DNA of 64,000 nt from Empedobacter stercoris (GTDB lineage: Bacteria; Bacteroidota; Bacteroidia; Flavobacteriales; Weeksellaceae), in contig NZ_JACXZC010000016.1 of NCBI RefSeq assembly GCF_020281205.1, positions 1 to 64,000 on the forward strand. Direction: 5' to 3'. The position numbers were made by a program, and so were the translations under genes. Positions 1,729 through 27,293 of this stretch are shown here, piece by piece. Numbering within the stretch: position 1 is the stretch's first letter; each line of letters starts with the position of its first letter. The notes beneath the pieces were generated by a model that saw nothing but the letters and a program-made list of their open reading frames with translations, was not told where the DNA came from and ran no database searches.

Positions 1729-1797
1729 CAGTTCCCCGTTTTCTGATTGATTTTATCAATTCAAATCTTTCTGTTAAGGGACTATTTCGGGTATTAT

Positions 1798-1831
1798 AAG
1801 GCTGATGAAGTTCAGTAATCAGCCTTTTCTT
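1798..1831 (+). terminator. terminator downstream of tRNA-Phe
   Basis: AAGGCTGAT (1798-1806) pairs perfectly with ATCAGCCTT (1818-1826) and is followed by a T-rich stretch. It lies about 70 bases after the tRNA and would end its transcript. Confidence 0.65.
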
Positions 1832-1872
1832 TAATTGAATTTTTAAATTTTATAACATAGGCGCTAATAATT

Positions 1873-1911
1873 AGGCAGTAAGTAGCAGAGCGCTATTAAC
1901 TGCCTTTTTTA
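1873..1911 (+). terminator. strong terminator before the packaging operon
   Basis: AGGCAGTAAGTAGC (1873-1886) pairs with GCTATTAACTGCCT (1892-1905), with one mismatch and one wobble around a 5-base loop, and a run of six T follows. It is the second terminator in 110 bases and stands only 10 bases before the next gene, insulating the packaging operon from transcription to its left. Confidence 0.7.
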
Positions 1912-1920
1912 ATTTTATTC

Positions 1921-9194: not shown

Positions 9195-9266
9195 TTTCTT
9201 TCCCGTAACTCGCTCTTATCTCGTTAAAAAATACACTACTTAAGCGAAAATCGTTCAATATTTTTG
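9195..9266 (+). promoter_or_regulatory. late-promoter-like element, copy A (before head genes)
   Basis: The element CTTTCCCGTAACTCGCTCTTATCT ends at 9221, and a -7 box, TATTTTTG (TAnnTTTG form), starts at 9259, 38 bases later. The same two parts at the same distance occur at 14055-14126 and 26208-26280, each time before a block of late genes. No -33 TTTG is visible, which suggests an activator site. The scaffold gene starts at 9300. Confidence 0.6.
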
Positions 9267-9299
9267 TTTTAATCGATTTGAAATTAAAATCTCATTATA

Positions 9300-9965
9300 A
9301 TGAAACAAAAATTACTGGAGTTACTTACTGCTAAATTTTTAGGGAAAGGCACTACTCGTAAAGACGTATTGGCTCGATTAGCATCTGCTTTTGCGACACA
9401 ATGCGCAACAGAAGAAGAAGCTCAGGCGCTTATCAACAAGGTTACAGTTGAACAAGTTACTGACTTTGAAAAAGAACACCGTTCGGAAGTAGATTCTGAA
9501 ATTGCTAAAGCTACTAAAACAGCTTTAGAAAATGCTGGAAAAGGTAAAGGTGGTGAAGGGGCAGGAGAAGGAAGCTCAGAACCTGGAAAAGGTGAAGAAG
9601 GGAACGGAGGAGAAGAGTCTGAAATTGCTAAAGCATTAAAACAGATTGCTGAAACTCAGAAAACACTTGCTGACGAAATCAACTCTATCAAAGCTGGCAA
9701 AACTATAGAAACAAGGCTTTCTCGTATGGAAGAAGTTTTAAAAGATGTCAATCCTGAATTAAAAGCTAAAACGCTTAAAGATTTCGGAAGAATGTCTTTT
9801 GAAAATGATGAATCTTTTGAGGAATACTTGACAGAAACTACAACGGATATTCAAACAATCAATCAAACAATCGTAAATCAAGGTTTAGCAGGTCATCGAC
9901 CAGGTAATGGCGGAGCTGGAAGTGGTGATACTTTTACAGAAGCTGATTACGATGCAATGGTTTAA
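9300..9965 (+). CDS. probable capsid scaffolding protein
   Basis: The 221-residue acidic protein has the layout of phage scaffolds: a short helical head, a Gly/Glu-rich flexible linker (about 80-105), a coiled coil (about 106-150, SEIAKALKQIAETQKTLADEI) and a C-terminal tail. It lies directly upstream of the decoration and capsid genes, the standard place. No protease motif was seen. It is the first gene after late-promoter element A, so it is probably the first gene of the head transcript. Function is inferred from layout and position. Confidence 0.6.
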   Translation: MKQKLLELLTAKFLGKGTTRKDVLARLASAFATQCATEEEAQALINKVTVEQVTDFEKEHRSEVDSEIAKATKTALENAGKGKGGEGAGEGSSEPGKGEEGNGGEESEIAKALKQIAETQKTLADEINSIKAGKTIETRLSRMEEVLKDVNPELKAKTLKDFGRMSFENDESFEEYLTETTTDIQTINQTIVNQGLAGHRPGNGGAGSGDTFTEADYDAMV

Positions 9966-9983
9966 CATTTTAAAAAGAATTAC

Positions 9984-10373
9984 ATGGCATTTGTAGACTT
10001 AACAAAACAAAGATCTAATCCAACAAATGGTAAAGATCAAGTAGTTATTAGAAAACGTCTTTCATTTATTGACAGCGGGCGTTCATTAGATGTTACAGGA
10101 GTAACGGAAGAAGCTTTATATGCAGGACATATTATTGTTCAAGACTCAGTAACAAAAGAATATAAACCTTTAAAAGTTAGCGGAACTGATTTCGCAGAAC
10201 CTTTAGAAGGAGAAGAAATTGTTGGTGTTTTATCGAGTTCAATTTATACCGATACTGCTTTTGCTTCAATTTTGACAGCAGGTGTAGTCGGAGAAGGTGC
10301 GATGCCTTATAAATTAACTCCTGCGGTAAAAACTGCATTTAAAACTGCATTACCAGCATTACAATTACATTAA
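9984..10373 (+). CDS. probable head decoration/stabilisation protein
   Basis: A 129-residue beta-rich protein between scaffold and capsid genes. The middle (EEALYAGHIIVQDSVTKEYKPL) and the following section (GEEIVGVLSSSIY...ILTAGVVGEGAMPYKL) match the pattern of lambda gpD/HK97-type decoration proteins, in which a property is shifted from default and then described. It would bind the outside of expanded capsids. The assignment rests on pattern and gene order. Confidence 0.6.
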   Translation: MAFVDLTKQRSNPTNGKDQVVIRKRLSFIDSGRSLDVTGVTEEALYAGHIIVQDSVTKEYKPLKVSGTDFAEPLEGEEIVGVLSSSIYTDTAFASILTAGVVGEGAMPYKLTPAVKTAFKTALPALQLH

Positions 10374-10396
10374 TTAAAAAATAAATCAAATAACAA

Positions 10397-11497
10397 ATGG
10401 TAAAATCATTTTTTTTAGATCAAGAAGGTAGACTAAAAGCATTCAGAGGAATTGTACTTGCGGTTGTAAAAAAATACGGTTCAGGAAAAAAAGATGTTGA
10501 TACAGATGAAACATTTTTGTACCAAACGCATTTAGAGCCTAAATATTCAGTAGACGGAAGATGGACTACAATTCGTGGAACATTCAAACGTTTAGTTGCT
10601 GATTATGTCGCTATCGGTTCGCCTGCAACTTTAAAAACAAGAGGTTCAAAAGGTTCAGCAGAGGGAAAAATCCCAAAAGTTTCTAATAAATATTCTATGG
10701 ACGAGCAACAGTTCAAAGATTTAGAAACTATGATTCGTAATAATGAAGATGAAAAAGAAATCATCAAAGAAATTACGGACGATGCTAAAAATGCAATCCT
10801 TAACATTTACCGATTAAATGAATATACTTTTTTAAGCGGGTTACAAAACGGAGTTGCAGCAGTTGGGAGAAATGTTTCAAGAGGTACAGAAGTTCGTGCT
10901 GATTATGGTTATACAGACGATCAAAAATTGAACGTTGCAGTTGCTGGTACGGTTGAAGTTTCAGATGTTCAAAAGGTAATTGATAACGCAAGAAAAAAAC
11001 CAACAACATTATTTATTGATGCTGTTTCATTGAGTAGAATCAAAAACTCTTTATCATTTAGAGCGGCTGTTGCTAATAGTGCAAATGTAGTGTTAGAAGA
11101 TGCTACAAAATATCCTGCTTTAAATACTGCTCAGGTTGAGAATTATTTTGCTACTGAATGGAAAATAAAGTTAGTTTACGATGTAGATAAAACTTTTGAA
11201 ATTGAAAACGAAAAAGCAGAAACTGAAATTGTAAAAGCTTGGACAGATGGAGCGATGGTTTTCGCAAGTTCACCTAAAGTTGGGAATTTAGTAAATTCTA
11301 AAACTGTTGAACATACGCGCAGATCTAAGCTTGCAGATTATGCAGAAGCTGACTACATCTTAATTTCAAAATTTGGTGAGTTAGATCCATTAGTTGAATT
11401 TACAAAAGCAGAAGCGGAAGTATTGCCTGTGATTAATGCAGACGGTATTTATGTTTTAAATACTAATTCAACAACTGATGATCTTCCAACAGGCTAA
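10397..11497 (+). CDS. major capsid protein
   Basis: Assigned to this 366-residue protein by position (after portal, MuF, scaffold and decoration genes), size and composition, with an HK97-like pattern: an extended N-arm, a long helix around SMDEQQFKDLETMIRNNEDE, and a C-terminal section (WTDGAMVFASSPKVGNLV) similar to the A-domain end of many capsids. Hundreds of copies would form the shell. No propeptide processing site can be recognised. It ends in DDLPTG; the major tail protein also ends in DLPTG, an unusual coincidence. Confidence 0.75.
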   Translation: MVKSFFLDQEGRLKAFRGIVLAVVKKYGSGKKDVDTDETFLYQTHLEPKYSVDGRWTTIRGTFKRLVADYVAIGSPATLKTRGSKGSAEGKIPKVSNKYSMDEQQFKDLETMIRNNEDEKEIIKEITDDAKNAILNIYRLNEYTFLSGLQNGVAAVGRNVSRGTEVRADYGYTDDQKLNVAVAGTVEVSDVQKVIDNARKKPTTLFIDAVSLSRIKNSLSFRAAVANSANVVLEDATKYPALNTAQVENYFATEWKIKLVYDVDKTFEIENEKAETEIVKAWTDGAMVFASSPKVGNLVNSKTVEHTRRSKLADYAEADYILISKFGELDPLVEFTKAEAEVLPVINADGIYVLNTNSTTDDLPTG

Positions 11498-11508
11498 AAT
11501 CAAATATC

Positions 11509-11964
11509 ATGGCTAAAGTAACAATCACTAAAACATTGGTAAAAGAAAACTCTCAGTTAGCGGAATTGCTAACTGAGAGAAATATCGAAGTAGGTTCTAA
11601 AATTGAGCAATCGGAATTAGATGAGTTGTACAAGGTTTTAGAAACAACTGAATTGATTGAATTAACTCAAGAAGATTTGGACAAAGAACCAGGATTAATT
11701 TCTAAAGGTTTTGAAGTTGGTCAAGTTATCCGAGTTAAAAAGAAAGTTGAGGTTCAAGATTTAGATACGTCTAAAGAAGGAGAGAGTTCTCAAAATTTAG
11801 ACGAGAATTTAGACGAAACACCTAAATCTTACAAAGTGATTTCTCGTTTCCGTGATAAAGAGAACGAATCGAAGATTTACGAAGTGAACGAAGTTGTTCC
11901 TGCTGATTTTGAAGAATCTCGAATTGCTTCTTTATTAGAACGTAAACTAATCTCAGAAGCTTAA
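11509..11964 (+). CDS. hypothetical head protein with two similar small folds
   Basis: 151 residues, no family recognised. It seems to hold repeated small units: an N-terminal one (LLTERNIEVGSKIEQSELDELYKVL) and a C-terminal one (YKVISRFRDKENESKIYEVNEVV...RIASLLERKLI), joined by an acidic linker. Proteins with the second pattern often follow capsid genes in phages and are thought to act at the head surface or connector. It lies 11 bases after the capsid gene and 2 bases before the connector gene. Confidence 0.6.
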   Translation: MAKVTITKTLVKENSQLAELLTERNIEVGSKIEQSELDELYKVLETTELIELTQEDLDKEPGLISKGFEVGQVIRVKKKVEVQDLDTSKEGESSQNLDENLDETPKSYKVISRFRDKENESKIYEVNEVVPADFEESRIASLLERKLISEA

Positions 11965-11966
11965 TC

Positions 11967-12287
11967 ATGACAAATAAAGAATACATACAAAGCGTAATGT
12001 CGAGAGTTGGAGCTAATGCAAATGATGTCACTATTTTATTTGCTGAAAATCCAACTTTAAACCCAGACGGACAATTGATTTTGGAAGATTGCGAGAAGGC
12101 TTTGTATGATTCTTTTTGTTCTTGGATTCCGATGTATGAAAGTATTTCCGAAGGAGATATGACGGTTAAATGGAATTGGAATGCAATTCGAATGATGTTA
12201 GGTCGATTAGCTGCAAAGTTAGATTTACCTAATCCTTTAGATGAAAACGAACCAACTGTAACAGCGATTAATCCATGGGGACAATAG
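11967..12287 (+). CDS. head-tail connector (adaptor) protein
   Basis: A small helical protein of 106 residues in the position of the gp6/gp15-like adaptor that docks beneath the portal. Features are a helical N-terminus (TNKEYIQSVMSRVG), a central helix with DCEKALYDSFCSWIP and a helical Arg-rich segment (NAIRMMLGRLAAKLD). Length and gene order fit; sequence signature is weak. The last 13 bases overlap the next gene. Confidence 0.6.
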   Translation: MTNKEYIQSVMSRVGANANDVTILFAENPTLNPDGQLILEDCEKALYDSFCSWIPMYESISEGDMTVKWNWNAIRMMLGRLAAKLDLPNPLDENEPTVTAINPWGQ

Positions 12288-12607
12288 GGCACGATCATTA
12301 TTTATTTATTGAAGATAATTCTTTGATTTACGATGAAGAAACAGGCGAAATGATTCCGAATGAAAACGGAATAAAGTTTATTTCTATATGTCGCGAACAG
12401 GTTAACTCAAGTGGAAAAGTGATTGCTGGTACTGATGGAATTACAATTGCTTTTAATTCAGTGATTCATTTAGATAAATCTGTTTTACCGATTGAATTAG
12501 GAAAAACTATCATTGTTTCAAATGATTCAGAAGGTAAGGACGTAAGGATTAAAGGTAGTGTTCTAAGGTTTACGCAAGGATTATTACACAATCGATTATG
12601 GGTATAA
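12275..12607 (+). CDS. head closure (stopper) protein
   Basis: 110 residues, predicted mostly beta (FIEDNSLIYDEETGEMI..., IHLDKSVLPIELGKTIIVSND). It lies between the adaptor and the gp10-like tail completion gene, where siphophages encode the stopper that closes the head after packaging and joins the tail. There is no firm sequence signature, so the call is from order and fold type. Overlaps both neighbours by a few bases. Confidence 0.55.
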   Translation: MGTIGHDHYLFIEDNSLIYDEETGEMIPNENGIKFISICREQVNSSGKVIAGTDGITIAFNSVIHLDKSVLPIELGKTIIVSNDSEGKDVRIKGSVLRFTQGLLHNRLWV

Positions 12608-13047
12608 GACCGAATTTTTCGAGTAAAGATTTAGATAAGTATCACAAGAAGATTGAGAAACAAGTTTTCGAAAAAGCTATAAGAGGTTATTTATATCTCG
12701 GAGAAGCGTTTGTAACTCATGCTAAAAATAACGTAGAATTTATGGATCAAACAGGAAACTTGAGATCATCTATTGGTTATGTCCTTTTTGTAAATGGTCA
12801 AGTTTACAAAGAAGCATATACTCTTCATAAAAAAGGAAATGAAGGTATTAAAGAAGGTCCAGAAACAGCAAAGAGAATAGCTTCAACTTTACGAAATAAT
12901 AAAATTGTACTTGTCTTAACCGCTGGAATGAATTACGCTTTATACGTAGAATCTAAAGGTTACAATGTCTTGACAGCAACAGAACATGAAGCAAAACTAC
13001 ATGCTTTGAATATGTTTAGAAACTTTATGCGAGATCCAAAAATGTAA
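12598..13047 (+). CDS. HK97 gp10-like tail completion protein
   Basis: A 149-residue protein with the typical gp10 pattern: an N-terminal helix, then MDQTGNLRSSIGYVLF (about 50-65) and GMNYALYVESKGYNVLTATE (about 119-138), the latter being the YAxYVE...G..VL motif of the family. These proteins build the head-tail interface. Overlap with the preceding gene is 10 bases; the next gene starts 5 bases later. Confidence 0.8.
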   Translation: MGIRPNFSSKDLDKYHKKIEKQVFEKAIRGYLYLGEAFVTHAKNNVEFMDQTGNLRSSIGYVLFVNGQVYKEAYTLHKKGNEGIKEGPETAKRIASTLRNNKIVLVLTAGMNYALYVESKGYNVLTATEHEAKLHALNMFRNFMRDPKM

Positions 13048-13052
13048 ATATA

Positions 13053-13454
13053 ATGATGTACGATACTTTTGATGCAAACGAATTACTTTTTAAAGCTCTA
13101 AATATTGATGAAATTAAATCTGCTATAAAAGGTAAGTTGTATAATGATAGTCGTCCAATAAATTCACTGAACGAAGACATTGTCGTGAATACTATTACAA
13201 TAACAACCGTTTTTAAACCTCAATTAGCAACTTCTAATATCAACATTTATGTTCCTGATTTAGAATTAGGAATCAAAAATTCAAGACGTTTAAAAGAGAT
13301 TTCAAGAATCGTTCGTAAGGTATTTGAAAATCATCAATTCATAGGGAAGTCAGTTTATATTTCAGACTTAGGAATCATCCAAGAACAAAACGAAAAAGAA
13401 CATTACGTAAATCTTCGCATTCAATGGAGAATTTACGATCAAAAAACAAACTAA
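13053..13454 (+). CDS. tail terminator-like protein
   Basis: The 133-residue alpha/beta protein is placed after the gp10-like gene and before the tail tube, where siphophages encode the gpU-like tail terminator that caps tail polymerisation. The sequence has strand-rich parts (DIVVNTITITTVF, SNINIYVPDL), a helix (LKEISRIVRKVFENH) and a last strand pair (HYVNLRIQWRIYD), consistent with that fold. No direct signature is known to me. Either of two adjacent ATGs (13053, 13056) may be used. Confidence 0.6.
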   Translation: MMYDTFDANELLFKALNIDEIKSAIKGKLYNDSRPINSLNEDIVVNTITITTVFKPQLATSNINIYVPDLELGIKNSRRLKEISRIVRKVFENHQFIGKSVYISDLGIIQEQNEKEHYVNLRIQWRIYDQKTN

Positions 13455-13480
13455 TTATTAATTTTTAAAAAAACGATATT

Positions 13481-13996
13481 ATGGCAACATACACATTTGG
13501 TTTAGCCGAGATTTTAGTAGCAGCATCTTTAGCAACAGGTTTAATGCCTGAAGCTTCTGCAATGACTAAAATTGGAGAAGTTTTAGAAGGAACTGCAAAC
13601 ATGGCTCAAGAAGAAGGCGATAAGACAGAATTTAAGGAAGAAGGGAATCCAATTCCAAAAGTAACAATTTCTAAAGCTGGATCTTGGTCATGGAATTTTA
13701 ACGTTATGAATGCAGATCCTGAAATGCTTAGCGAATACATTGGAGGAAGCTACAATGATGTAACAAAAGAATGGGAGTTTGACGGGAAAACAAAATCAAT
13801 TGAAAAAGCTTTGTTTATCAAACCTAAACAAGGATTGTATTGGAAATTACCTAAAGCTTCAATTTCTGCTGTTGTAACAGGCGATTTAAACGAAGATGGA
13901 TTATTAACTTTAAATTTTACAGTTAGTCCATTGTCTCCTGCAGATGGTAAACCTTCAATTTTATCAGGTAAAGTAACAGATTTACCAACGGGTTAA
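13481..13996 (+). CDS. major tail tube protein
   Basis: 171 residues, beta-rich, following the tail terminator gene and followed by a terminator, which matches a highly expressed tail tube gene. The sequence begins MATYTFGLAEILVAA and contains a strand-rich core (KVTISKAGSWSWNFNVMNAD; GLYWKLPKASISAVVTGDLN). No sheath gene exists in the window, so the tail is non-contractile. It ends in TDLPTG, nearly the ending of the capsid protein. Confidence 0.75.
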   Translation: MATYTFGLAEILVAASLATGLMPEASAMTKIGEVLEGTANMAQEEGDKTEFKEEGNPIPKVTISKAGSWSWNFNVMNADPEMLSEYIGGSYNDVTKEWEFDGKTKSIEKALFIKPKQGLYWKLPKASISAVVTGDLNEDGLLTLNFTVSPLSPADGKPSILSGKVTDLPTG

Positions 13997-14021
13997 GCAA
14001 TTGATTTAATATTTTATAACT

Positions 14022-14053
14022 AAAAAACCACTCTTTATAGGAGTGGTTTTTTT
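14022..14053 (+). terminator. terminator after the major tail gene
   Basis: AAAAAACCACTC (14022-14033) pairs with GAGTGGTTTTTT (from 14041) and a T-run ends at 14053. It closes the head-to-tail-tube transcript directly before late-promoter element B. Confidence 0.85.
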
Positions 14054-14054
14054 A

Positions 14055-14126
14055 TTTCCTTCCCTTAACTCACTCTTATCTCGCCAGATTTTACAATACT
14101 AAATCCTTATTCATTCGCCATTTTTG
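14055..14126 (+). promoter_or_regulatory. late-promoter-like element, copy B (before tail genes)
   Basis: CCTTCCCTTAACTCACTCTTATCT ends at 14081 and CATTTTTG, one base off the TAnnTTTG form, starts at 14119, the same 38-base step as in copies A and C. It lies between a terminator and the tail chaperone gene (ATG 14142), giving a leader of about 10 bases. Confidence 0.6.
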
Positions 14127-14141
14127 TATAAATCGAAATCC

Positions 14142-14657
14142 ATGGATCAAAAAGATATACAAAGAGAAGAAATCAAAACTTTGATTGAAGCGCCTTACGA
14201 GTTTGAAGTAGAATTCAATAAAAAAGTGACCGTTCAAGAAAAATACTTTTTTGGTTTAATTCCTTGTAAAAAAAAGGTAGTTAAAAAGGTCAAAGAAAAG
14301 TTCAAAATCAAACCTTGTACATTATCGACTTTGGACCGACTTTGCCAATATCAAATCGAATTATTTTTTGATGAAGGTAAATTGAATAACGAGCTTGAAA
14401 TTTTTAATCAAACAAAACTTATTGCATATAAAAACGCTAAAATAATGGCGGATATAGTTGCAGTTGCAGTCGTTGGAGTTGATTACTCTAAATCAGAATT
14501 TAAACGAGTTTCAAACATTCTTTACAATTCACTTACGCCAGCTAAACTATTTGAGATTATAAATGAGATTCTTAAATCACAAGATCTTGCAAATTTTATG
14601 CACTCTACTCGATTAGCATCGATAAAGACGACGATAAGTCCGAACGAAGTAGAGTAA
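14142..14657 (+). CDS. putative tail assembly chaperone
   Basis: 171 residues, soluble and mostly helical. Its position between the tail tube and tape measure genes is that of the gpG-like chaperones that coat the tape measure. The N-terminal third is basic (KKKVVKKVKEKFKIKP) and the rest includes a helical run ending VAVAVVGVDYSKSEF. ATG 14142 is preferred; the longer frame to 14124 needs a TTG that lies in the promoter region. The following 73-residue gene may be its partner; no clear slippery site for frameshift fusion is seen. Confidence 0.55.
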   Translation: MDQKDIQREEIKTLIEAPYEFEVEFNKKVTVQEKYFFGLIPCKKKVVKKVKEKFKIKPCTLSTLDRLCQYQIELFFDEGKLNNELEIFNQTKLIAYKNAKIMADIVAVAVVGVDYSKSEFKRVSNILYNSLTPAKLFEIINEILKSQDLANFMHSTRLASIKTTISPNEVE

Positions 14658-14662
14658 AAGGA

Positions 14663-14884
14663 ATGAAAAGTACCTATGGAACAAGAGCTTCTATTTGTGC
14701 GCATTTCGGATGGACACTTGATTATTTAGAAAACCAAATCCCTTGGTCAAAAGTAATTCGTTTGATGGCAGATTTACCTTCTTACGATTACGATGATGAC
14801 GAAAATATAAATACCCAAACAAAAAAAGCAGTAAAAATAACAGAACAGAATGCAGACGACATTCTTAAAATGTTTCAAAGCTAA
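14663..14884 (+). CDS. putative second tail chaperone
   Basis: The small 73-residue protein sits 5 bases after the first chaperone candidate and its stop overlaps the tape measure start by one base. The N-terminal part (THFGWTLDYL-type: AHFGWTLDYLENQIPW) looks like the short phage proteins that follow gpG-like chaperones and often contain such a tryptophan-rich segment; the C-terminal half is acidic. It is in the -1 frame relative to the gene before it, as in GT fusions, but lies after a normal stop. Confidence 0.55.
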   Translation: MKSTYGTRASICAHFGWTLDYLENQIPWSKVIRLMADLPSYDYDDDENINTQTKKAVKITEQNADDILKMFQS

Positions 14885-17800
14885 TGGATATAAATAACGG
14901 AAGATTAGGATTTACCCAAGACTTAGATAATCAAAAATTTTTAAATGCACTTCGACAATCGAATAAAGGTGTAGAAGATTTTAATACACACGTTCAAAAT
15001 CAATTCAAACAATCTACAGGGGTAGTTAATACACTTGCAAAAGGAGTAGCAGCTTTTTTAACAGTTGATTATGCAACTCAATTTGTTTCTCAAATGGTTA
15101 AAGTTAGAGGGGAATTTGAGCAATTAGAAATTGCCTTCACAACTATGTTAGGTAGTAAGGAGAAAGCAGATTCTTTAATGCAAGAAATTGTAACATTTGC
15201 AGCAACAACTCCTTTCGGTTTACAATCTACTTCGGAAGCTACTAAAATGTTATTAGCTTATGGAGAAAGTGCTGAAACCGCTTTGGATACAATGCGAAAA
15301 CTTGGAGATATAGCTTCAGGGGTTGGTATTCCTTTGAAAGATATTGCTTATTTGTACGGAACAACAATGACGCAAGGTCGATTATACACTCAAGACTTAA
15401 ACCAATTCTTAGGTCGTGGTATTCCAATGATGGACGAACTTGCAAAAATTTTAGGAGTTTCTAAAAACGAGGTAAAAGGATTAGTTGAAGCTGGTAAAGT
15501 AGGTTTTCCAGAAGTTCAAAAAGTTATTGATAATCTTACTGCAAGCGGTTCGATGTTCGGTGGGTTAATGGAAGCTCAATCAAAATCTGTTGCAGGACAA
15601 ATCGAACAGTTAAAGGATGCAGTTGATGTTATGTTTAACGAAATCGGTAAAGATTCGCAAGGGTTTGTAACATCTGTTATTGGAGGTGCTTCGAGTGTCG
15701 TTGAGAATTATGAAGCAATTGGAAAAACAATAGCTGTGTTAGTCGCTACTTACGGAACTTATAAAGCGGCTTTAATTGTTTTAAATGTTATTGAAAAAGC
15801 AAGATTAACTACAACTTTAGCAATTGGAGCTGCAGAAGGTAGAGTAACAGCTATGCAAGCGTTAAGATATGTTTCAACTCTTAAACTTACCGCAGCTCAA
15901 ACAGCATTAAATGCCGCTGTGATGGCAAATCCGTATGCAATTGTCATAGCCGCTGTTGTAGCATTAGGTTCTGCTTATTATTTTTTAGCAGATCATACAT
16001 CTGCTGCTGAAAAAGCGCAAGAATCGTATAATAAAACACAGGAAGAAGTTAAATCTAAACTTGACGAAACTAAACAAAAAGCTGAGGAATATATAAGTAT
16101 TTTAAAAGATGAAACAGCAACCGTTTATCAGCAAATTGAAGCATATAAAGCGTTACAATTACTGAAATTAAAAGGATTTGAAAATCTTAGTCAAGAGCAA
16201 GTTCAAGCAATGGATGTTAATGAGTTAAAAAAACTTATTAATGAAGCTAATGATGTAAAAGGGCTTGATTTGCAAAAACAAAAGTTAGTTGAAATTGAAA
16301 ATCAGATTGATTCTGTAAAAAATCAGATTCAACAAATGAACAAAGCGCAAGGACATACGGGGCTTGCTCTTTCTGATGCTTATAACAAATTAGAAGTACT
16401 TAATAAGCAGTACGATATACAATTAAGTAAAGTAAATCAAATCGATCGAGATATGAAATTTGCTAATATGACTTTGGAACAAAAAAAGGCATATTGGGAA
16501 AGTATTATTTCCACAACTGAAAAACAGATATTTACTTTATCGAATGTTAATACTAATCAAGAACAAGGATTAAATCTTGCGCAGCAGGTTTCGAATGCAT
16601 TCCAATCTTGGGACGTTTCTCGTTTAAATTATCAATTAAATGAAGCGCAGAATCAATTGATTGCTATTAATGGACAGATTAATTCTGCTGTTCCTGAAAT
16701 AAAAAATAAATCATATTGGGATACTAAAAAATCCGATGCAACAAGCAAAAGAGATAAACTCGATCCAAAAGACCCAAGAAATAAAGAAGAATGGAACAAG
16801 CTAACAAATGAAATTAACGAAGCTGATAACGCTTTAAAAGCATGGAGCGTTACATCTGCAAAGGTTGCTAAACCAAAATCCATTAAGCCAACTAAAAAAT
16901 CTGATGATCCTGTAGAAATTTACAAAAAACAAGTTTCTGAAATTGAAAAGCAACACGAACGATATTTAAAAATTTTAGATTCAAACGATATTTCATTTGT
17001 TACTGAGAAAGCAATTTTACAATCTCAATTATCAAGTAAAGAAAAGACTTATGAAGAGTATTTGCGTACTCAACAAAAAGAACTCTCAAAAACAGCAGAA
17101 ACATCAGAGATTACAAGAAAAAAACTTTCATTCGTAAATGATGAGTTATTAAAATTAATTAATCATAGTGAAGTTGAAATTTTTAAGGATAATCTTGACA
17201 AACAGCTTGATAATGTTGATTCAGTTGTTGAGAAATTAAAAATCATTGATGATGTTAAAAATGAATTAAGTTCAAATACGAATGAACTTACAGCTCCTAA
17301 GATTGAATTTATTGATAAAACTCAATTAGAACTGCTTGAGCAATTAGACAAAGCAGGCAAAGATTTAGTCGCTTCTTTAGGTGGTGGTTACTCTCAACTG
17401 CAAAAACTTACAAATGAATATAATAATGATATTCTAATCTTAACAGAATCGCTTAAAAATGCAAAAACGGAAGCTGAAAAAACAGTTATAAATGATTCAA
17501 TTTGGAAGCGAGGTGTAAAATTCGCAGAAGATTCAAAAGATCTCCCTACCAATGATGATAATTACAATAAGTTATTATTAGAATTTAAGTCATTCGAACA
17601 AAAAAAAGCTGATATAACTCTTGATTTTGATAATAAAATTGCAGTTGCTAAACTAAATAACGATAAGAAATTAGAAGAACAACTTCTTCAAGAAAAGAAA
17701 AAAGCTTTATCAAAAATCGCATTTGAACAACTTAAGAGTTCCCAGTATTATATTAAATTATTAGGAAGTCTTGATAAAATGTCGGTTAAGTCTTTAGATA

Positions 17801-19143: not shown

Positions 19144-19657
19144 TAATATAAAAATAGAAGTTCTAAAAAGAGCTAAACAAAACGAGATATGCGAAGAATG
19201 GGCGGTTAAAATGGAAAACGCCCAAACTTTGGATGAGCTACTTGATATGTATATCAAAGGAATTGATTTTTCTTTTTCATCTGAATTTATTTCAAATGAT
19301 TTTATACGAAGAAATCTAAAAGGAAAAATGGAACATAAAGGAATTTTCCTTGATGACTCGATTGACTTGCATAATAACAGAGAGATAGTTTGTCTTGGTG
19401 ATTCAAGATTAAACTATTTAGCTGATGAATTTTCTGTTACTCAGCTGTATTTGCGAGACAATGTGAAAGCTCGGTTAGTCGTAAGAGATAGTGCGTTTGT
19501 TATGATTGATATTTTTGACAATGTTAAGTTAGAAATAGAAGCAAGCGACAAAGCTAACGTTCGAGTGAATTGCTATAAAGGTGCTAAAGTTACTTATAAA
19601 AGTAACGATGATAGTTATGTAAAAATTTCAAATAAAGATTTTAAAACGTATAGATGA
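19133..19657 (+). CDS. hypothetical tail protein, beta-solenoid-like C-terminus
   Basis: Encodes 174 residues. The first third is helical (IKIEVLKRAKQNEICEEWAVKM) and the rest has short repeating beta units (LYLRDNVKARLVVRDSAFVMIDIFDNVKLEIEA-type steps) like a small beta-solenoid. Similar proteins occur beside tail genes in Bacteroidota prophages but have no known function. ATG 19133 is chosen; it overlaps the tape measure stop by 11 bases. The next gene overlaps by 4 bases. Confidence 0.6.
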   Translation: MDFNNIKIEVLKRAKQNEICEEWAVKMENAQTLDELLDMYIKGIDFSFSSEFISNDFIRRNLKGKMEHKGIFLDDSIDLHNNREIVCLGDSRLNYLADEFSVTQLYLRDNVKARLVVRDSAFVMIDIFDNVKLEIEASDKANVRVNCYKGAKVTYKSNDDSYVKISNKDFKTYR

Positions 19658-20292
19658 TTCCTGTAGTTTATTTACTTGACAATATACCCTTTAAAAATTA
19701 CAATGTTTATGTTTCAGATTCTTCAAATCTTTTTGATAAAGCTTCTGTAAAAGAAAATCAAAAGAAAGATTGGAGCGATGAACACGGTTATGATATTGAT
19801 TTGCAATCACGATATCATAATTCTAAAACGATTACAATTGATTGCTTTATTCATGCTAAAACTTTGAAAGAATGTATTGAAAAGTACAATGATTTCTATA
19901 ATGCTTTAGATAAAAAAGGATCTCGCAGATTATCAGTTATTGCTGGTGATTTAAGAATGGAATATCAAGTTTTCAGACAAGATACAGCTGAAAATAAATT
20001 GAATTATGACGATTCTAATGCAGTAGGTACTTTTAAATTAAAATTGATTGAAAATATGCCTGTTAAAAGGATTTTGAAGTCAATTCAAAAAACAACCAAT
20101 ATTATTTTAAAATCTAAAAAGGTTTTAGTAATTAATTGGGGAGATGGGTCCGAGCAATACACTTCTCCAAATGCTGAGATTTATTCTCATACTTATCAAG
20201 CTACAGGTGTATTTTACCCAATGGTTTTAGGTGATTTGGATTCAATCACAACGTTTAACTCAAATGCAGATGTTTTATGGAGCAGATTTTAG
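19654..20292 (+). CDS. distal tail (Dit)-like protein with PKD-like domain
   Basis: A protein of 212 residues directly after the tape measure unit, where siphophages encode Dit. The N-terminal part, IPFKNYNVYVSDSSNLF...GYDIDLQSRYHNSKTITIDCFI, resembles Dit proteins, and ALDKKGSRRLSVIAG recalls their belt domain. The C-terminal 60 residues read like a PKD fold (VINWGDGSEQY, IYSHTYQATGVFYP), which can bind carbohydrate or protein. It overlaps the next gene by 16 bases. Confidence 0.65.
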   Translation: MIPVVYLLDNIPFKNYNVYVSDSSNLFDKASVKENQKKDWSDEHGYDIDLQSRYHNSKTITIDCFIHAKTLKECIEKYNDFYNALDKKGSRRLSVIAGDLRMEYQVFRQDTAENKLNYDDSNAVGTFKLKLIENMPVKRILKSIQKTTNIILKSKKVLVINWGDGSEQYTSPNAEIYSHTYQATGVFYPMVLGDLDSITTFNSNADVLWSRF

Positions 20293-23200
20293 TTAAACGA
20301 GCTGATAATACTGGATATCTGTTAGAAGATAAAAACAAAGGAGTATTTATTTCATCAATTATACAATCAACTGAATTAAGGAGTAATGACGTTATCAATG
20401 TTGAGCTTATCAGTCGAGAATTTATCAATTTTACAATTGGTGATTCTTTTCATTATTTAGGTCAAAAATATACGTTAAATCAAATCCCACGATACTTCAA
20501 AAATAGCTCAAATGATTTTCAATTCTCAATGACATTTGAAGGTGTAATGTTCGATTTACGTCGAGCTTCTTATGATGTAAATATTGATACAACAGGATCT
20601 GCAATTTATGGCGAAACACTAACAGCGGATTTAGAATTATTCGCTAAAATTCTAATTGAAAACATAAATCGTGTTTTCCCTGATAAATGGGTTTTAGGTG
20701 AATTGCCATCTGAAACAGAAACAAAAACAATTACTTTTTCAGAAGAAGAGAATTGTTTGGCTGCTTTGCAAATGCTTTGCGATGAATATGATACTGATTT
20801 TGTAATTAAGACTAATAACAACGGAGTTAATATTCTAAACTTTAAGCAAGTAGGAACTGAAATTCCTTTAGAGTTTAAAGTCGGTTTTCAAAAAGGACTT
20901 TATACGTTAACTCGTGAAAAAGTTGATGCAAGCGATATTGTTACTCGCTTAAAAGTTTATGGTTCAGATAAGAATTTAGGTACTGATTATCGAGCTAATC
21001 GATTAGTTTTAAAAGATAAAAACAAACCTAATTCCTATATTGAAAATACTCAAGCAGTTGCTAAATATGGGATTTACGAATCAACTAAAATCTTTGATGA
21101 TATTTATCCAAGACGCAAAGGGAAAGTAACCTCTATTAATTCAGAATCACCTTACAAGTTTTCTGATATATCAATGGATTTTGATTTAAAAGAAAAAGAT
21201 GAAAACGGAACCAAATATCTATTAGATGGAGTAAGCGCTAAAATTCATTTTAATACAGGCGATTTAGCAGGTTATGAATTTGAAGTTCACGATTACAACC
21301 ATACGACAAAGGAATTTCATATTATCAAATTTGCTGATGAAAATAGTTATGAATTTCCTTCAAAAGATAATGATGCATTTAGAATTGGTATTGGTGATGA
21401 GTATGTAATTTTAGACATTCAAATGCCACAAGTTTACATTGATAACGCAGAGGCTGAACTTTTTGAAAAAGCTGATGAATATTTATCGGATAAACTTGAA
21501 CCGAACATTCAGTATTTACTTGATGTTGATACATTACATCTTCAAAGAATTTTAAATGATACTGTTACGCAATTCCTTTCAATTGGTGATTTTATCAAAG
21601 TTATTGATGAAGATTTTGACATTAATCGTTACATCAGAATCAAATCTATTGAAAGAGATTTAAGGAATCCTTTTGATTATAAATTAACGCTGTCAGATTC
21701 GAAAGTTACAAACTTTTTAAACGGAACTATTCCAGGAGAAATAAACACGATTAAAAATATCATTAAGCTTAACAATCTTAATGATCCTGCAAGAGCAAGA
21801 AGATCTTGGAGGGATGCGCAAGAGGTTTTGAATATGGTTTTTGATGTTGAAGGTGATTATTACACTGAGAAGATTAAACCAAATTCAATCGAAACAACTC
21901 ACCTGCAAGTCGGTGCTAAGTCAATGCAATTTAACCTTATCGATTCATTTTTCGAACCTAATTTTGAAGGTAATCCTAATAAGATAAGATGGTCTAATTG
22001 TAAACTTGTTCATTTTACTATTTCTGATAAGATAATTGATTGGCAAATACAAGGAGGTCAGAAGGATTTAGAGTCGAACAAACCTTATTATTTGTATGCA
22101 AAATGTAACAAATCAAATAATATTGGTGTAATTGAAATTACGGAAACACAGTACACGGTAGATCAAGGGAATTTTTATTATTTCTTAATCGGAATAGTAA
22201 ACACTTATTCAGAAGATGTAAAAGCACGTGAAATCTCATTGATGTATGGTTTTACAACCGTTTCAGGAAGATTTATAAAAACAGGGCGAATTGAATCGAG
22301 TGGCGGCGGTAATACTTATTTTGATTTAGATACAGGAGAAATAAGTGGAAGGATTATGTTTTTAGATGGTTCAGAAGCTTATGAGCAAATTTATGGCGGA
22401 ATTGTTATCGGTGGTGAAAATCTATTAAGCAGTTCAAGTACTCAGCAATTAGGTTACGATTTAGAAGAAGACAAAAAGCTTCGTTATGCAGGTCAAGTAA
22501 AAGAATTTTGCATATCTGTTGATGTGACTTTACCGACTAATATAGATGTTTGTTTTTATGTCATTGGAAGGAAAAACGATAATACTGCAGAGGCTTTAGG
22601 CTATAAAGTTTTTGAAGGAATTAAAGGGAATAAACGAAGTCGAGTACACGCATCTTTTGAATGCGATATTTCTACTTATAAAAAGTTTTTCCTTGTCCTT
22701 AAAAATGAAGCAAACGATCAAGATATTGAAGTTGAATTTTTACAGCCAAAACTTGAGCTTGGAAAATTTCCAACTGATTACTCGGAAAGTGGTAACGATA
22801 TAAAAGTTTACAATGAAAATCGTATTAAAGAAATTGAAGAAAAAGCAAGTTTTTTAAGCACAACTATTTCGGGAAATATTGTCGCTACAGGCATGCTGAT
22901 GGTTGGAAATCTAAAAGGCGCAAATGCTGGAATAAGTGGTTTTTCAGAAAACGGTAAACAATCAGTTCGTTTTTGGGCAGGAGCTAAAGCTTCAGGTCGA
23001 GCAAATGCTATTTTTAGAGTACTTGATGATGGTTCTGTGTTTGCCGAAAACGCTTATATCAAAGGCGAAGTGCATGCAACAAGCGGAACTTTTACAGGAC
23101 GAATAGAAGCGAATTCAGGCTACATTGGTGGTTTAACTTTACAAGATAAGCTACTAACAACAACTGATATTAATTCAGGTATTTGGTTTACTTATGAAAA

Positions 23201-23717
23201 TGAAGATTACAAGTCATCGATTCGATTAGGAAATAATATTGGAACGGGAATTTTACCTGATCAGAATTATTATCCTTTTTTAATGATTCATAATCAGGCT
23301 AAAAAAGTTATTACACCATGGGAGTCTTACAAAGCAGGTATTCATTTAGATATGAAATCTTACAATGATAATCTTTTAAGTTATCCAGCTATTGAGGTTA
23401 AAAATGGACACTTCTCTGGTTTAGCATTTGAAGTGGAGAGCATCTTATCAACCAACACTATCAGGGTAGATTCTGATCTATGTTATGTTACTCCTCGCAC
23501 TGGCTATCCAAATGAAATTTATTTACCTGATAATCCGAGAATAGGTAAAATGCTTACGATAATAAACCCTTTACCTGAAATAGGAAGTGTAACTGTAAAA
23601 AGCCGTAATCATTCAATCGCTTCAAAATGGTTGCATCAAGATAAACAGCTTTCATTTAGTAACACAATGATGCTTGTGTTTATAGGAAATTCATGGATAA
23701 CAATAGTAAGAAGTTAA
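20277..23717 (+). CDS. tail-tip / baseplate hub protein
   Basis: The 1146-residue protein begins like a Tal/gp27-type hub (FINFTIGDSFHYLGQKYTLNQ, a cleft domain) to about residue 480. A carbohydrate-binding-like jelly roll occupies about 690-850 (IVIGGENLLSSS..., ELGKFPTDYSES). The rest is a fibre-like ending with turn repeats (YIKGEVHATSGTFTGRIEANSGYIGG). It would close the tail tube and contact the cell surface. It overlaps the Dit gene and precedes the fibre gene. Confidence 0.8.
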   Translation: MEQILVKRADNTGYLLEDKNKGVFISSIIQSTELRSNDVINVELISREFINFTIGDSFHYLGQKYTLNQIPRYFKNSSNDFQFSMTFEGVMFDLRRASYDVNIDTTGSAIYGETLTADLELFAKILIENINRVFPDKWVLGELPSETETKTITFSEEENCLAALQMLCDEYDTDFVIKTNNNGVNILNFKQVGTEIPLEFKVGFQKGLYTLTREKVDASDIVTRLKVYGSDKNLGTDYRANRLVLKDKNKPNSYIENTQAVAKYGIYESTKIFDDIYPRRKGKVTSINSESPYKFSDISMDFDLKEKDENGTKYLLDGVSAKIHFNTGDLAGYEFEVHDYNHTTKEFHIIKFADENSYEFPSKDNDAFRIGIGDEYVILDIQMPQVYIDNAEAELFEKADEYLSDKLEPNIQYLLDVDTLHLQRILNDTVTQFLSIGDFIKVIDEDFDINRYIRIKSIERDLRNPFDYKLTLSDSKVTNFLNGTIPGEINTIKNIIKLNNLNDPARARRSWRDAQEVLNMVFDVEGDYYTEKIKPNSIETTHLQVGAKSMQFNLIDSFFEPNFEGNPNKIRWSNCKLVHFTISDKIIDWQIQGGQKDLESNKPYYLYAKCNKSNNIGVIEITETQYTVDQGNFYYFLIGIVNTYSEDVKAREISLMYGFTTVSGRFIKTGRIESSGGGNTYFDLDTGEISGRIMFLDGSEAYEQIYGGIVIGGENLLSSSSTQQLGYDLEEDKKLRYAGQVKEFCISVDVTLPTNIDVCFYVIGRKNDNTAEALGYKVFEGIKGNKRSRVHASFECDISTYKKFFLVLKNEANDQDIEVEFLQPKLELGKFPTDYSESGNDIKVYNENRIKEIEEKASFLSTTISGNIVATGMLMVGNLKGANAGISGFSENGKQSVRFWAGAKASGRANAIFRVLDDGSVFAENAYIKGEVHATSGTFTGRIEANSGYIGGLTLQDKLLTTTDINSGIWFTYENEDYKSSIRLGNNIGTGILPDQNYYPFLMIHNQAKKVITPWESYKAGIHLDMKSYNDNLLSYPAIEVKNGHFSGLAFEVESILSTNTIRVDSDLCYVTPRTGYPNEIYLPDNPRIGKMLTIINPLPEIGSVTVKSRNHSIASKWLHQDKQLSFSNTMMLVFIGNSWITIVRS

Positions 23718-23733
23718 AATTAAAAATATTAAA

Positions 23734-25980
23734 ATGGCTATAGATAGAAATATTACAATCAATATTAATGACGTATCACCTTTAGCTAATACAGCTTATG
23801 TTGATGCAGGAAAAGAAAATAAAGTTTACAACAAAGCGCAAGTAAATGAGCTCGTAGAAGATTTAAGAGAAGGTACTTTAGGAAGTATTTCTCCTTCGCA
23901 AACTTTACAACAATTAAATGCATTACCTGATGGTAATTATTATGCATCAGAAGCTGGAACTTATGCTTTTGGTACAAATGTTCCTGTTGGTTGGCAGTAT
24001 CGTTTTAATAAAACAGGAACGACTTGGAAGGTTTTAACGAAGGTTCAAATACCAATGCAAGATTTAACGCCTTTAGAAAATCGAATTACAGAGAATGAAA
24101 ATAAAGTTGATGAGTTTATCGAAAATTTTGCGGTTGATGTCGACCAAGAATTTATACCGACCTCTGAGAATGCAACGAGTTCTAAGGCAGTGAATGATTG
24201 GTTATTTGGAGTTGAAGAAGAAGTTGTCGGAGATTTAAAAATATTAGGAATAAACACTTTTGATTCTGAAATTGAAGGTGCTGCGGATAGAGGGTATTTT
24301 GCATTTTCTGATAAAATAAGTGATGAAGTTGCAAAAGGTAAAAAATTAAAAATACGATGCGCTACAGCTGGGCAAATATATATAAAAATATACAGTGTAA
24401 ATGGTACTACCTTAGTGTATAAATCAACAAAAATAAATGCTGTTAATATTGGAATGAACGAAATCGATATGACAGATGTTTATTTTGAAAAAAATGATAT
24501 TTTATATTTTGGAGGTGTTACTATTTATACAGTTCCTACTCCAGGTAAAATAATTTACGGTTCAACTTACACGCGAGTACCTTTAAATAACACTAATAAT
24601 ATTAATTTGTCGTCAATTGCTAAAGCAGATGGTCACTTATTAGAATATGCTTTAGAATATAATGTTGTCAATTCAATTCCAGTTAATGGTAAAGTAGTAG
24701 ATAAAATCGATTTTTCATCTTCAAAATCGATTCCAAATGTTAAAGCTGTAATGGATTATGTAGTTGAAAATCAAAAAAATAATCTAACTGATATAATACT
24801 TATACCGAGTTATGGTCAGTCATTATCTATCGGTACAAACGGAGGTGCGTCAACTTTCACTTCTCCAATAGACATAGCGTATAATGTCAACGGAGTTAAT
24901 TCTAACGTACAAGATATGAATGGAGGTTATATAGAAATGTTTAAAGACATGGCAAAACATTATAATTACAAATTACCTTCTGATTTTAAAATAATGACGT
25001 GTTTAGGTGGAGCAGGCGGTATATCGATTAGCAACTTATCTAAAGGTACTACGTATTATAATAACATACTTAATAATGTTAGAACCGCTAAAGCTACTGC
25101 TGATAGTTTAGGGAAAACCTTTAGTGTACCTGCTTTTTGTTGGACTCAAGGAGAAGAAGATTACAGATCGGGAGGTAATTCAGCTAACTATGGAGTCGCT
25201 CCTTACGAGCCATTAAAATACGCTGAAAAATTAATAAAATTAGTAGATGATTTAAACGCAGATATTAAAGAAATTACAAAACAAACTATTGATGTCAAAT
25301 GTGTAATGTATCAGTTAGCTTGTCATAATACTTATGGTCGTTATCCAAGAATAGCCTTAGAGCAATTAAAAGCGAGTTTGAAAGATAATAGAATTGTACT
25401 TGCAAAAACAATGTATGATGTAGACTATAATACGGCTGATTATGTTCATGCACCAAATAAAACTTATAGAAATATGGGTAATTATTATGGTATTGGATTA
25501 TTCGAGGCAATTGTAAATAAAAAACATTATTTACCGATTTATCCGATAAAGCATTTTATAAGAGAAAATGAAATCTTTATTCAGTTTCATGTACCTAAAC
25601 CACCATTAAAATTTGATGAAATTTTAGTAAATCCGTTAACTGATGGAAATAAAGGTTTTAATATTTATAATGTTACAAATGAGATTAGTACAACAGCAAC
25701 TATTTCTCAATCAAGTATAACAATCTATTCAGTTGAAATCTATTCAGAGGATACAATTAAAATAACTTTATCTGGAAATCCATTAGTAGGTAGTAGGCTT
25801 ACTTATGGTGTTAACGGACAAGGATATGATTCAATAGATGGTGTAAGACCAGCAAATGCTCGAAGTGGAAAAGTTTTAGGTGCAAGAGGTAATTTAAGAG
25901 ATTCTCAAACCTATTTTAATCAAGTTGTAGATTACTTTAATTTATATAATTGGTGTCCTATTTTTGAGATTATTTTTTAA
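23734..25980 (+). CDS. tail fibre with SGNH/sialate O-acetylesterase-like domain
   Basis: 748 residues. The N-terminal third is a fibre shaft and attachment region with a fibre-type sentence (LPDGNYYASEAGTYAF, 66-79). The catalytic domain starts near 350: block I YGQSLS with Ser363, then GGAGGIS (425-431), WTQGEED (470-476) and the D..H block DYVHAP (Asp569, His572), together the SGNH/GDSL carbohydrate-esterase set. It probably removes O-acetyl groups from host capsule or LPS sugar during adsorption. The C-terminal 140 residues are a beta-rich domain of unknown role. Confidence 0.85.
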   Translation: MAIDRNITININDVSPLANTAYVDAGKENKVYNKAQVNELVEDLREGTLGSISPSQTLQQLNALPDGNYYASEAGTYAFGTNVPVGWQYRFNKTGTTWKVLTKVQIPMQDLTPLENRITENENKVDEFIENFAVDVDQEFIPTSENATSSKAVNDWLFGVEEEVVGDLKILGINTFDSEIEGAADRGYFAFSDKISDEVAKGKKLKIRCATAGQIYIKIYSVNGTTLVYKSTKINAVNIGMNEIDMTDVYFEKNDILYFGGVTIYTVPTPGKIIYGSTYTRVPLNNTNNINLSSIAKADGHLLEYALEYNVVNSIPVNGKVVDKIDFSSSKSIPNVKAVMDYVVENQKNNLTDIILIPSYGQSLSIGTNGGASTFTSPIDIAYNVNGVNSNVQDMNGGYIEMFKDMAKHYNYKLPSDFKIMTCLGGAGGISISNLSKGTTYYNNILNNVRTAKATADSLGKTFSVPAFCWTQGEEDYRSGGNSANYGVAPYEPLKYAEKLIKLVDDLNADIKEITKQTIDVKCVMYQLACHNTYGRYPRIALEQLKASLKDNRIVLAKTMYDVDYNTADYVHAPNKTYRNMGNYYGIGLFEAIVNKKHYLPIYPIKHFIRENEIFIQFHVPKPPLKFDEILVNPLTDGNKGFNIYNVTNEISTTATISQSSITIYSVEIYSEDTIKITLSGNPLVGSRLTYGVNGQGYDSIDGVRPANARSGKVLGARGNLRDSQTYFNQVVDYFNLYNWCPIFEIIF

Positions 25981-26125
25981 CTTTCTGCCAGTACTTAAAG
26001 TCAGACATGCCAGACACGGCTCCTTCGTTTATTAATTCTTGTTTAATAGCGCAGTTATTGCAACGTCTTTCTGTTTTCGACGAATAAATCCATTTGTGGA
26101 AATTTAGTTTACATAGTAATTTCAT
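25970..26125 (-). CDS. tiny Cys/His zinc-ribbon-like protein
   Basis: A 51-residue reading frame on the minus strand with the metal-binding pattern C-x4-H-x2 (CKLNFHKW) followed by RRCNNC, the arrangement of a small class of Bacteroidota proteins with CxxxxHxW...CxxC. It begins at an ATG (26125) in the intergenic gap and its last 11 bases overlap the end of the tail fibre gene. No promoter was identified. It lies opposite to the lysis genes, like a moron. Confidence 0.5.
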   Translation of the reverse strand: MKLLCKLNFHKWIYSSKTERRCNNCAIKQELINEGAVSGMSDFKYWQKVKK

Positions 26126-26175
26126 ATGTTATTATTTGAAAAAATATTAAATATTAACGCAAATGTAATAAAATT

Positions 26176-26204
26176 AAACCACCTCAAAAAAAGGTGGTTT
26201 TTTT
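26176..26204 (+). terminator. terminator before the lysis block
   Basis: AAACCACCT (26176-26184) pairs with AGGTGGTTT (26192-26200) and a T-run follows. It ends transcription coming from the tail operon, immediately before late-promoter element C. Confidence 0.8.
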
Positions 26205-26207
26205 ATG

Positions 26208-26280
26208 TCCTTTCCGAACTATCTCGCTCTTATCTTCTTAAAAGTAACTATCATAATGCGACTTCGTTGATTTAGTTTTA
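26208..26280 (+). promoter_or_regulatory. late-promoter-like element, copy C (before lysis genes)
   Basis: CTTTCCGAACTATCTCGCTCTTATCT ends at 26235; TAGTTTTA, close to TAnnTTTG, begins 38 bases later at 26273. The spacing equals copies A and B, though the 5' part has two extra bases. The holin gene starts at 26317. It follows a terminator, as copy B does. Confidence 0.55.
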
Positions 26281-26787: not shown

Positions 26788-26789
26788 TT

Positions 26790-27290: not shown

Positions 27291-27293
27291 TCT

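Follow-up and report, generated by a model that had tools for sequence, protein, structure and literature searches.

How are the late genes of a prophage of Empedobacter stercoris turned on together? We addressed this question in a 64-kb stretch of the genome (hereafter the window), in which the late half of the prophage lies at the left end of contig C7; the early half is found on another contig of that genome, at the end of C18. A preliminary description of the window had singled out three copies of an element, each consisting of a CTTTCC-containing sequence followed at a fixed distance by a -7-like box, and had likened them to activator-dependent phage promoters whose activator it called unknown. 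Our analysis indicates that the three elements are probably activator-dependent late promoters, at which the protein encoded at 1921-2436 binds a repeat and recruits RNA polymerase to a -7 box without a -33 partner.

Three promoter copies with a fixed spacing

Within the 64 kb, CTCTTATCT is present in exactly three copies, always on the + strand (9213-9221, 14073-14081 and 26227-26235), where 0.44 occurrences are expected, and a count of three was reached in none of 100 shuffles. The boxes TATTTTTG, CATTTTTG and TAGTTTTA begin at 9259, 14119 and 26273, each 38 bases past the end of CTCTTATCT, exactly as first described. The parts of the three copies are as follows.

9206-9221, + strand: putative activator site of copy A, with cores TAACT (9206-9210) and TATCT (9217-9221) and an 11-bp period
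9259-9266, + strand: -7 box of copy A, TATTTTTG, starting 38 bases past the last base of the second core; box type as in the available part of PMC9723704
14066-14081, + strand: putative activator site of copy B, with cores TAACT (14066-14070) and TATCT (14077-14081)
14119-14126, + strand: -7 box of copy B, CATTTTTG, with the 38-base spacing
26220-26235, + strand: putative activator site of copy C, with cores TATCT (26220-26224) and TATCT (26231-26235)
26273-26280, + strand: -7 box of copy C, TAGTTTTA, with the 38-base spacing

The conserved feature is a tandem 11-bp repeat

Related records were reached by several routes. An exact 15-mer scan of IMG/VR gave 96 stretches, six of which have a correctly placed -7 box and are true relatives; the others look like chance matches. 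A seventh contig, G007, was added via the capsid protein, a query that returned one viral locus and none in genomes. In the late regions of these relatives, the aligned pieces are 73-98% identical, mostly 79-94%. G018, which is grouped in the same genus as the window's genome, was found through its homologue of the window protein 1921-2436 (57% identity); it contains a syntenic prophage that matches a virus record without a difference over 20.5 kb. Finally, a portal profile search added L180 (G646), L185 (G647) and distant phages, and G648 was likewise reached via the portal. From this material we assembled 27 late promoters in 11 records, the window counted, aligned on the -7 box; the boxes of this alignment were picked by hand, and later scans take every box of the stated types. 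The arrangement recurs at equivalent late blocks in these related phages.

The site first described is real, but CTTTCC is not its conserved part. In G018, CTCTTATCT is absent near the late genes, and CCTAAGT...CCTAACT-type repeats stand in the same place, before the scaffold-like, tail and holin genes. What the 27 promoters share is a tandem direct repeat, TAWST-N6-TAWST, with 5-bp cores placed 11 bases apart and spelled TAACT, TATCT or TAAGT (CAACT in two first cores of G647). A set of 11 non-redundant promoters has an identity of 0.53 at lag 11, whereas the remaining lags between 3 and 20 give 0.22-0.35, and the best 7-bp half-site identity, 0.82, was reached in 0 of 2000 shuffles of either kind (within sequences or of whole columns). 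The distance from the end of the second core to the -7 box is 38 bases in 26 of the 27 promoters and 37 in the remaining one. Moreover, all 27 are free of TTTG and TTG at 18-22 bases ahead of the -7 box, so that the absence of a -33 box, like the pairing of an upstream factor site with a -7 box at fixed spacing, extends from the three copies to the whole set. Two features of the activator-dependent late promoter class are accordingly found here, namely a fixed-spacing site at several late operons per phage and a missing -33 contact.

We then scanned both strands of these phage records (G018 with its host flanks, and G648, included) and of the C18 arm for paired cores followed by a -7 box. The 498,078 bases gave 26 matches, all on the late strand, of which 25 are known promoters and one, at G647 33564, is new; order-1 resamples gave 0-3 matches, with a mean of 0.7. 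The strict pattern misses two G647 promoters (G647_B and G647_C), whose first core is CAACT. The new match belongs to an inserted tail-fibre-like gene that bears its own copy of the late promoter (G647 33564-33660, L200).

These data bear on two other readings of the repeats. It is barely conceivable that they reflect chance, or one promoter copied around by shared descent without function: copies A of close relatives are indeed near-identical, but the A, B and C spacers within a phage show no greater likeness than spacers from different phages, whereas the repeats and the spacing are kept, and the pattern is met again where the half-sites are others and the portals 37-45% identical to that of the window. 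The repeats could also be operators for a repressor that silences late promoters in the lysogen, since tandem direct repeats serve repressors as well and a lysogen needs its late genes silent. We regard this as very unlikely, because the repeats lie upstream of the core promoter rather than over it, because the -33 contact missing throughout suits activation, and because the spacing to the -7 box is fixed to the base in all but one promoter.

Half-sites agree within a phage and differ between phages

Repeat units of the window group resemble CTTAACTCGCT, those of G018 CCTAASTTTTT and those of G647 GACTAACTTAC. Over 13 promoters, half-sites agree at 8.3 of 11 positions within phages and at 6.3 of 11 between phages; the spacers, used as a control, show no difference (0.415 within, 0.418 between). 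With three phages of three promoters each, the real assignment is the only one of 36 label arrangements to score this high. Because half-sites differ between phages and agree within a phage, the sequences point to a phage-encoded, co-evolving binder. The window half-site pattern, searched in 99 genomes including its own, found only the sites of the window, as follows from half-sites that differ between phages. The 13-base pattern CTCNCTCTTATCT is exact in its own genome only at the three window sites, with four more at one mismatch.

A host factor, whether host DnaA or another regulator, might instead read the repeats. DnaA can act as a transcription factor, and the window half-site includes TTATC, similar to the left half of TTATNCACA, the DnaA box; a match to the full box is, however, poor by eye. 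Such a factor would not predict phage-specific half-sites, as a co-evolving phage factor would, yet half-sites differ between the window prophage and the G018 prophage of the same genus and agree within each. We therefore hold a host factor to be most improbable.

The missing left part of the prophage was found on C18. Its sequence CTCGCTCTTAGCT (L006, about 1500), also present in relatives, lies in the early region on the opposite strand; we considered it as a copy D and rejected it, as the sequence is conserved but has neither paired cores nor a -7 box at 38 bases. The two-core plus -7 scan of the C18 arm gave no match.

A candidate regulator with a predicted DnaA domain IV fold

A strong candidate for the activator is now at hand.

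1921-2436, + strand: proposed late activator, 171 amino acids, with a shortened DUF4406-like N-terminal part and a predicted DnaA domain IV

Its gene is followed by 2433-2957 and then by the small terminase gene at 2969, and in close relatives it lies directly 5' of the small terminase. Given this position, next to the terminase genes and at the close of the early/middle region, the late operons would be activated jointly once the gene is expressed. The protein is kept at 88-92% in the six close relatives that cover the locus, although the large terminase or capsid is swapped in several. Host genomes seldom carry it: it was found in 2 of 320 from the family.

PHROGs returned for the window protein only weak matches of no assigned function. 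Profile A1, built on four members, finds a 206-amino-acid L190 protein (6.7e-16) that is a fusion of DUF4406 and Bac_DnaA_C; its Bac_DnaA_C match is 9.9e-10 (38.8 bits, cut-off 31.5) and its DUF4406 match of 21.0 bits falls just below the cut-off of 22. L188 holds a second fusion, with 80.5 bits for DUF4406 and 25.6 bits for Bac_DnaA_C (cut-off 31.5). In these fusions (L190:866-1483 and L188:304-909), the DUF4406 part is nucleoside deoxyribosyltransferase-like; in the window protein it appears shortened. Two further weak relatives, in G139 and G098, score 40.8 and 24.6 bits for Bac_DnaA_C. Profile A7, which has no window-type rows, retrieves from the window genome not only the window protein (1.6e-19) but also the DnaA of the chromosome (6.0e-6). 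With the eight-row profile A6, the best PDB match is DnaA domain IV, over profile residues 77-161 (E 0.0042).

The fold was then modelled. An earlier structure from five rows (A3) was poor, with a predicted local distance difference test (pLDDT) score of 50, whereas the AlphaFold model from the eight-row alignment has a mean pLDDT of 77.7 and block means of 87-95 for residues 71-160. Against 3pvp, a DnaA DNA-binding domain with DNA, it gives Z 14.2 and a root-mean-square deviation of 1.7 A, with 94 of 95 residues aligned; against 1j1v it gives Z 13.5, and the next non-DnaA match has Z 5.6. Foldseek against PDB gave weak E-values (best 0.017) at a probability of 1.00. Among the viral matches are proteins labelled 'DnaA C-terminal', 'replication initiator' or 'helix-turn-helix'; these come from uncultured phages and from phages of Nonlabens, Tenacibaculum and Flavobacterium. 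The C-terminal half of the window protein is thus predicted, from modelling, to be a DnaA domain IV.

The same promoters could be served by another activator, a 66-amino-acid LuxR/GerE-type protein encoded beside a Cro-like gene in the early operon (L006:915-1115, C18). It has a GerE match of 5.5e-07 and homologues in G001, G002, G004, G005, G006, G646, G647 and G018, but its recognition-helix segment is identical in G018 and G647, whose half-sites differ. No homologue is found at E<=1 in phage005b, vB_RanS_PJN03 (PJN03), G648 or the fragment L190, although phage005b and G648 bear the repeats. We also compared, by BLAST, the window-phage open reading frames of at least 60 amino acids with ten distant site-bearing records. 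Twelve late-region genes and one nuclease-like early gene are matched in all ten; the DnaA domain IV gene is matched in seven by BLAST and in ten by profile (partly through selection), the Cro-like gene in three, and the LuxR-like gene in fewer than three, which leaves it outside the frames matching at least 3 of the 10 records. The LuxR/GerE-type protein accordingly retains a small probability at best, and the protein 1921-2436 remains our candidate.

Some observations concern the surroundings of the regulator gene. In L153 (G002) it carries a premature stop, either an assembly error or a broken copy. The stretch of the phage just 5' of it (window 1656-1920) holds a tRNA-Phe gene; relatives have a changed form of this tRNA or a second tRNA-like sequence next to it. 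Between tRNA-Phe and the regulator ATG, two hairpin-like stretches were seen by eye; the terminator scan lists none there.

Site and candidate regulator in distant phages

Nine distant records were studied: phage005b, G957, G998, G999, G1000, G1002, G1003, G1004 and G1005. Besides phage005b, we read G1000, G1003, G1004 and G1005 in full, G957 (a genome of the window's class) as the 60 kb around the regulator, and G998, G999 and G1002 in part (40.0 of 78.1, 43.6 of 63.6 and 45.4 of 105.4 kb). Porphyromonas phage005b (L205), a phage of Porphyromonas gingivalis, encodes a DUF4406-DnaA-IV fusion and has sites before a ParB-like gene/terminase (spacing 38), a scaffold-like homologue (38) and a tail-region gene (36); sites with a -7 box at 36-38 bases are expected 0.005 times per genome. 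G648 has two sites with GAAGT half-sites.

A profile search for distant regulators gave 143 viral loci, of which 80 were kept; the 49 with near full-length matches were used and form 18 clusters. Downstream of the regulator, 8-mer repeats with TAnnTTTG occur at lag 11 in 5 of the 18 clusters and at 15 other lags in none. Over all lags, the same test gave one cluster match on the other strand and four on the upstream side. When based on the cores, it found lag 11 in 4 of 18 clusters and nothing at lags 9, 10, 12 and 13. Thirty-one matches at lag 13 were discarded, as none of the 18 clusters retains them.

The nine distant records contain 17 late-strand sites and one stray on the other strand, and six control lags gave no match on either strand. 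Eight of the nine (not G1005) have a site before the terminase/ParB-like block, and eight (not G1000) have one that precedes the scaffold-like gene or stands in its place. In G1003, where the scaffold-like gene is unmatched, the site lies between the head-morphogenesis and capsid genes. Seven of the nine have two or more sites. The portals of the site-bearing distant records are 37-45% identical to that of the window, and their half-sites are other ones.

Sites fall into two classes, TAWST with 36-39 and GAAGT with 41-42 bases to the -7 box, and the regulators of the two classes form separate groups (support 100/100). The recognition-helix stretch reads RDHSS or similar in the distant TAWST members, has another spelling in the window type, and is HD-x-S in the GAAGT class.

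Altogether, site and regulator occur together in the window, in G001-G006 (six records), in G018, G646, G647 and G648, and in the nine distant records. A co-occurring candidate regulator, as envisaged by the preliminary description, accompanies the site in the long records read that cover both; the exception is PJN03, with a distant DnaA domain IV protein and no site. The records without a match to the regulator profile (BF503P2, scanned over the first 50.0 of 53.6 kb, MT835612, L193, L194, L195 and L191) have no lag-11 site save a single minus-strand match in BF503P2; the control lag of 12 gives one match on the minus strand of BF503P2 and one on that of MT835612. The short fragments L187 and L189 contain no core pair. 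With an 8-of-9 repeat scan, the Porphyromonas sites went undetected, and PJN03 yielded nothing but low-complexity matches.

In several phages, a second, dyad-like element was seen in the interval from the repeat to the -7 box. It reads TCACTATAAAACA, the complement of this sequence, or GTGTTTTATATTAAAACAC, and is often part of a longer hairpin; it lies in L205 near 15230, 30520 and 44865, and also in G998, G999, G1002, G1005 and L222. It is possibly the site of a second factor or a repressor.

Late operons and neighbouring genes

The surroundings of the three copies are given below.

14022-14052, + strand: terminator-like hairpin directly 5' of copy B
26176-26200, + strand: terminator-like hairpin directly 5' of copy C
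9300-13996, + strand: genes downstream of copy A, namely 'scaffold-like' and 'decoration-like' (labels by position), major capsid (phrog_29), neck-type genes and a tail-tube gene
14154-25980, + strand: genes downstream of copy B, namely a tail-region gene (phrog_15994), tape-measure, distal-tail, tail-associated and fibre-like genes (labels by L205 homology and position)
26317-27854, + strand: genes downstream of copy C, namely holin (phrog_199), endolysin (phrog_2649) and spanin-like (label by position)

Copies B and C thus lie right behind terminator-like hairpins, in agreement with the preliminary description. The assignment of the copies to head, tail and lysis blocks is roughly right, but the tail-tube gene, whose L205 homologue is annotated as major tail protein, sits in block A, and the terminase, portal and head-morphogenesis genes lie upstream of copy A. 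The phrog_15994 gene of block B has no assigned function.

In the small terminase (window 2969-3142), the first 58-62 residues are kept among relatives and the rest is unmatched. The major capsid gene (10397-11497) has been exchanged between phages that are otherwise alike, with 59% identity in G007, 38% in G646 and 41-42% in G018 and G647, and no tblastn match in G001, G004, G005 and G006.

Discussion

We infer protein-site binding, activation by this binding and the transcription starts from the arrangement described above. The protein 1921-2436 would bind the 11-bp direct repeat as a pair of adjacent units that share one face of the DNA, and the bound protein would recruit host RNA polymerase with the housekeeping sigma factor to a -7 box of the TAnnTTTG type. 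This box has no -33 partner, whose part the activator site would take over, and the head, tail and lysis operons would all come on when the regulator is expressed. The -7 box lies at -12 to -5 in Flavobacterium psychrophilum, according to the accessible text of PMC9723704; the repeat is placed at about -65 to -50 because we take the same position here.

Several points weigh against this model. The window protein matches no Pfam family at E<=1. In vB_RanS_PJN03, whose host is presumably Riemerella by its name, a distant DnaA domain IV protein (E 2.9e-9) is found and no such site. G1000 (scaffold), G1005 (terminase) and the fragment L190 show a single good half-site by eye, and G646 has no copy before its lysis genes. 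Thirteen of the 18 regulator clusters are in short loci without such sites, and two of the five passing clusters are doubtful by eye (L233 is purine-rich, L250 palindromic). Selection also matters: all nine distant records were reached via the regulator (seven by profile loci, G957 and phage005b by separate searches), and six of the seven contigs were picked after a first site had been seen, so that their second sites and both G957 sites are the independent tests. A repeat scan blind to the half-site is noisy, fails on phage005b and also picks up non-late repeats in G018 and G647; observed against expected counts are 25 and 8.5 in G018, 34 and 5.7 in G647, 6 and 2.9 in the window, 0 and 0.7 in phage005b, and 2 and 3.5 in PJN03. 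Lastly, the portal tree splits the site classes alike (95/95, the G957 row being a 70-residue piece), and because it separates them equally well, covariation at class level does not single out the regulator.

Comparison with known systems upholds the activator-dependent logic of the preliminary description and not its likeness to Mor/C of phage Mu. As in Mu, an activator site would replace the missing upstream polymerase contact, and C serves several late promoters (PMC4461284, in the part available). Mor, however, binds inverted repeats in a 16-bp element centred at -43.5, according to the portion of PMC4390567 consulted. The window site is a direct repeat at lag 11, placed at about -65 to -50, and the candidate has a predicted DnaA domain IV fold; judged from these sequences, Mor/C is probably the wrong relative. 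The Bacteroidota sigma-A promoters described in the sections of PMC9723704 at hand have the same type of -7 box, whereas here there is no -33 TTG and a paired repeat lies upstream instead.

Closest in logic is Ltr of the Staphylococcus phage Phi13. Its gene lies upstream of the late promoter and is needed for late genes, and direct repeats upstream of the start are its proposed sites (PMC13123087, as far as its available text goes). The likeness lies in gene position and upstream direct repeats, and our candidate gene has the position just upstream of the terminase/late region typical of Ltr, ArpU and RinA. In the same excerpt, Ltr differs in having four repeats at one promoter, P23, compared with two repeats of 11-bp period and up to four promoters per phage here. 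Pfam and PHROGs scans of the window protein gave no Ltr, ArpU or RinA match, no family-specific comparison having been made.

DnaA boxes are short directional sites. With DnaA domain IV (PF08299; 3pvp, 1j1v), the candidate shares the predicted fold over the whole domain, and several distant members keep the RDHSS stretch. Unlike DnaA, it is a 171-amino-acid protein without an AAA+ domain, joined to DUF4406 or a remnant of it, and its presumed sites contain TAWST or GAAGT rather than TTATNCACA and precede late operons. A search of the open-licence literature found no late-gene activator named for Bacteroidota phages and no DnaA domain IV late activator.

On a broader scale, we lean towards the view that phages of Bacteroidota have reused the DnaA DNA-binding domain, alone or fused to the nucleotide-hydrolase-like DUF4406, as a late master activator, and that half-sites drift with the regulator, giving separate switches to co-resident prophages. 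Perhaps the DUF4406 part makes the late switch responsive to a nucleotide signal.

If this is true, a group of phage proteins akin to those annotated only as 'DnaA C-terminal', 'helix-turn-helix' or 'hypothetical' would gain a function, and late operons could be called from sequence by the 11-bp repeat and the -7 rule. The co-evolving pair of regulator and site would moreover constitute a natural specificity series, with possible use as orthogonal expression switches. The timing of late genes in Bacteroidota phages is poorly known, and the present reading suggests how it works.

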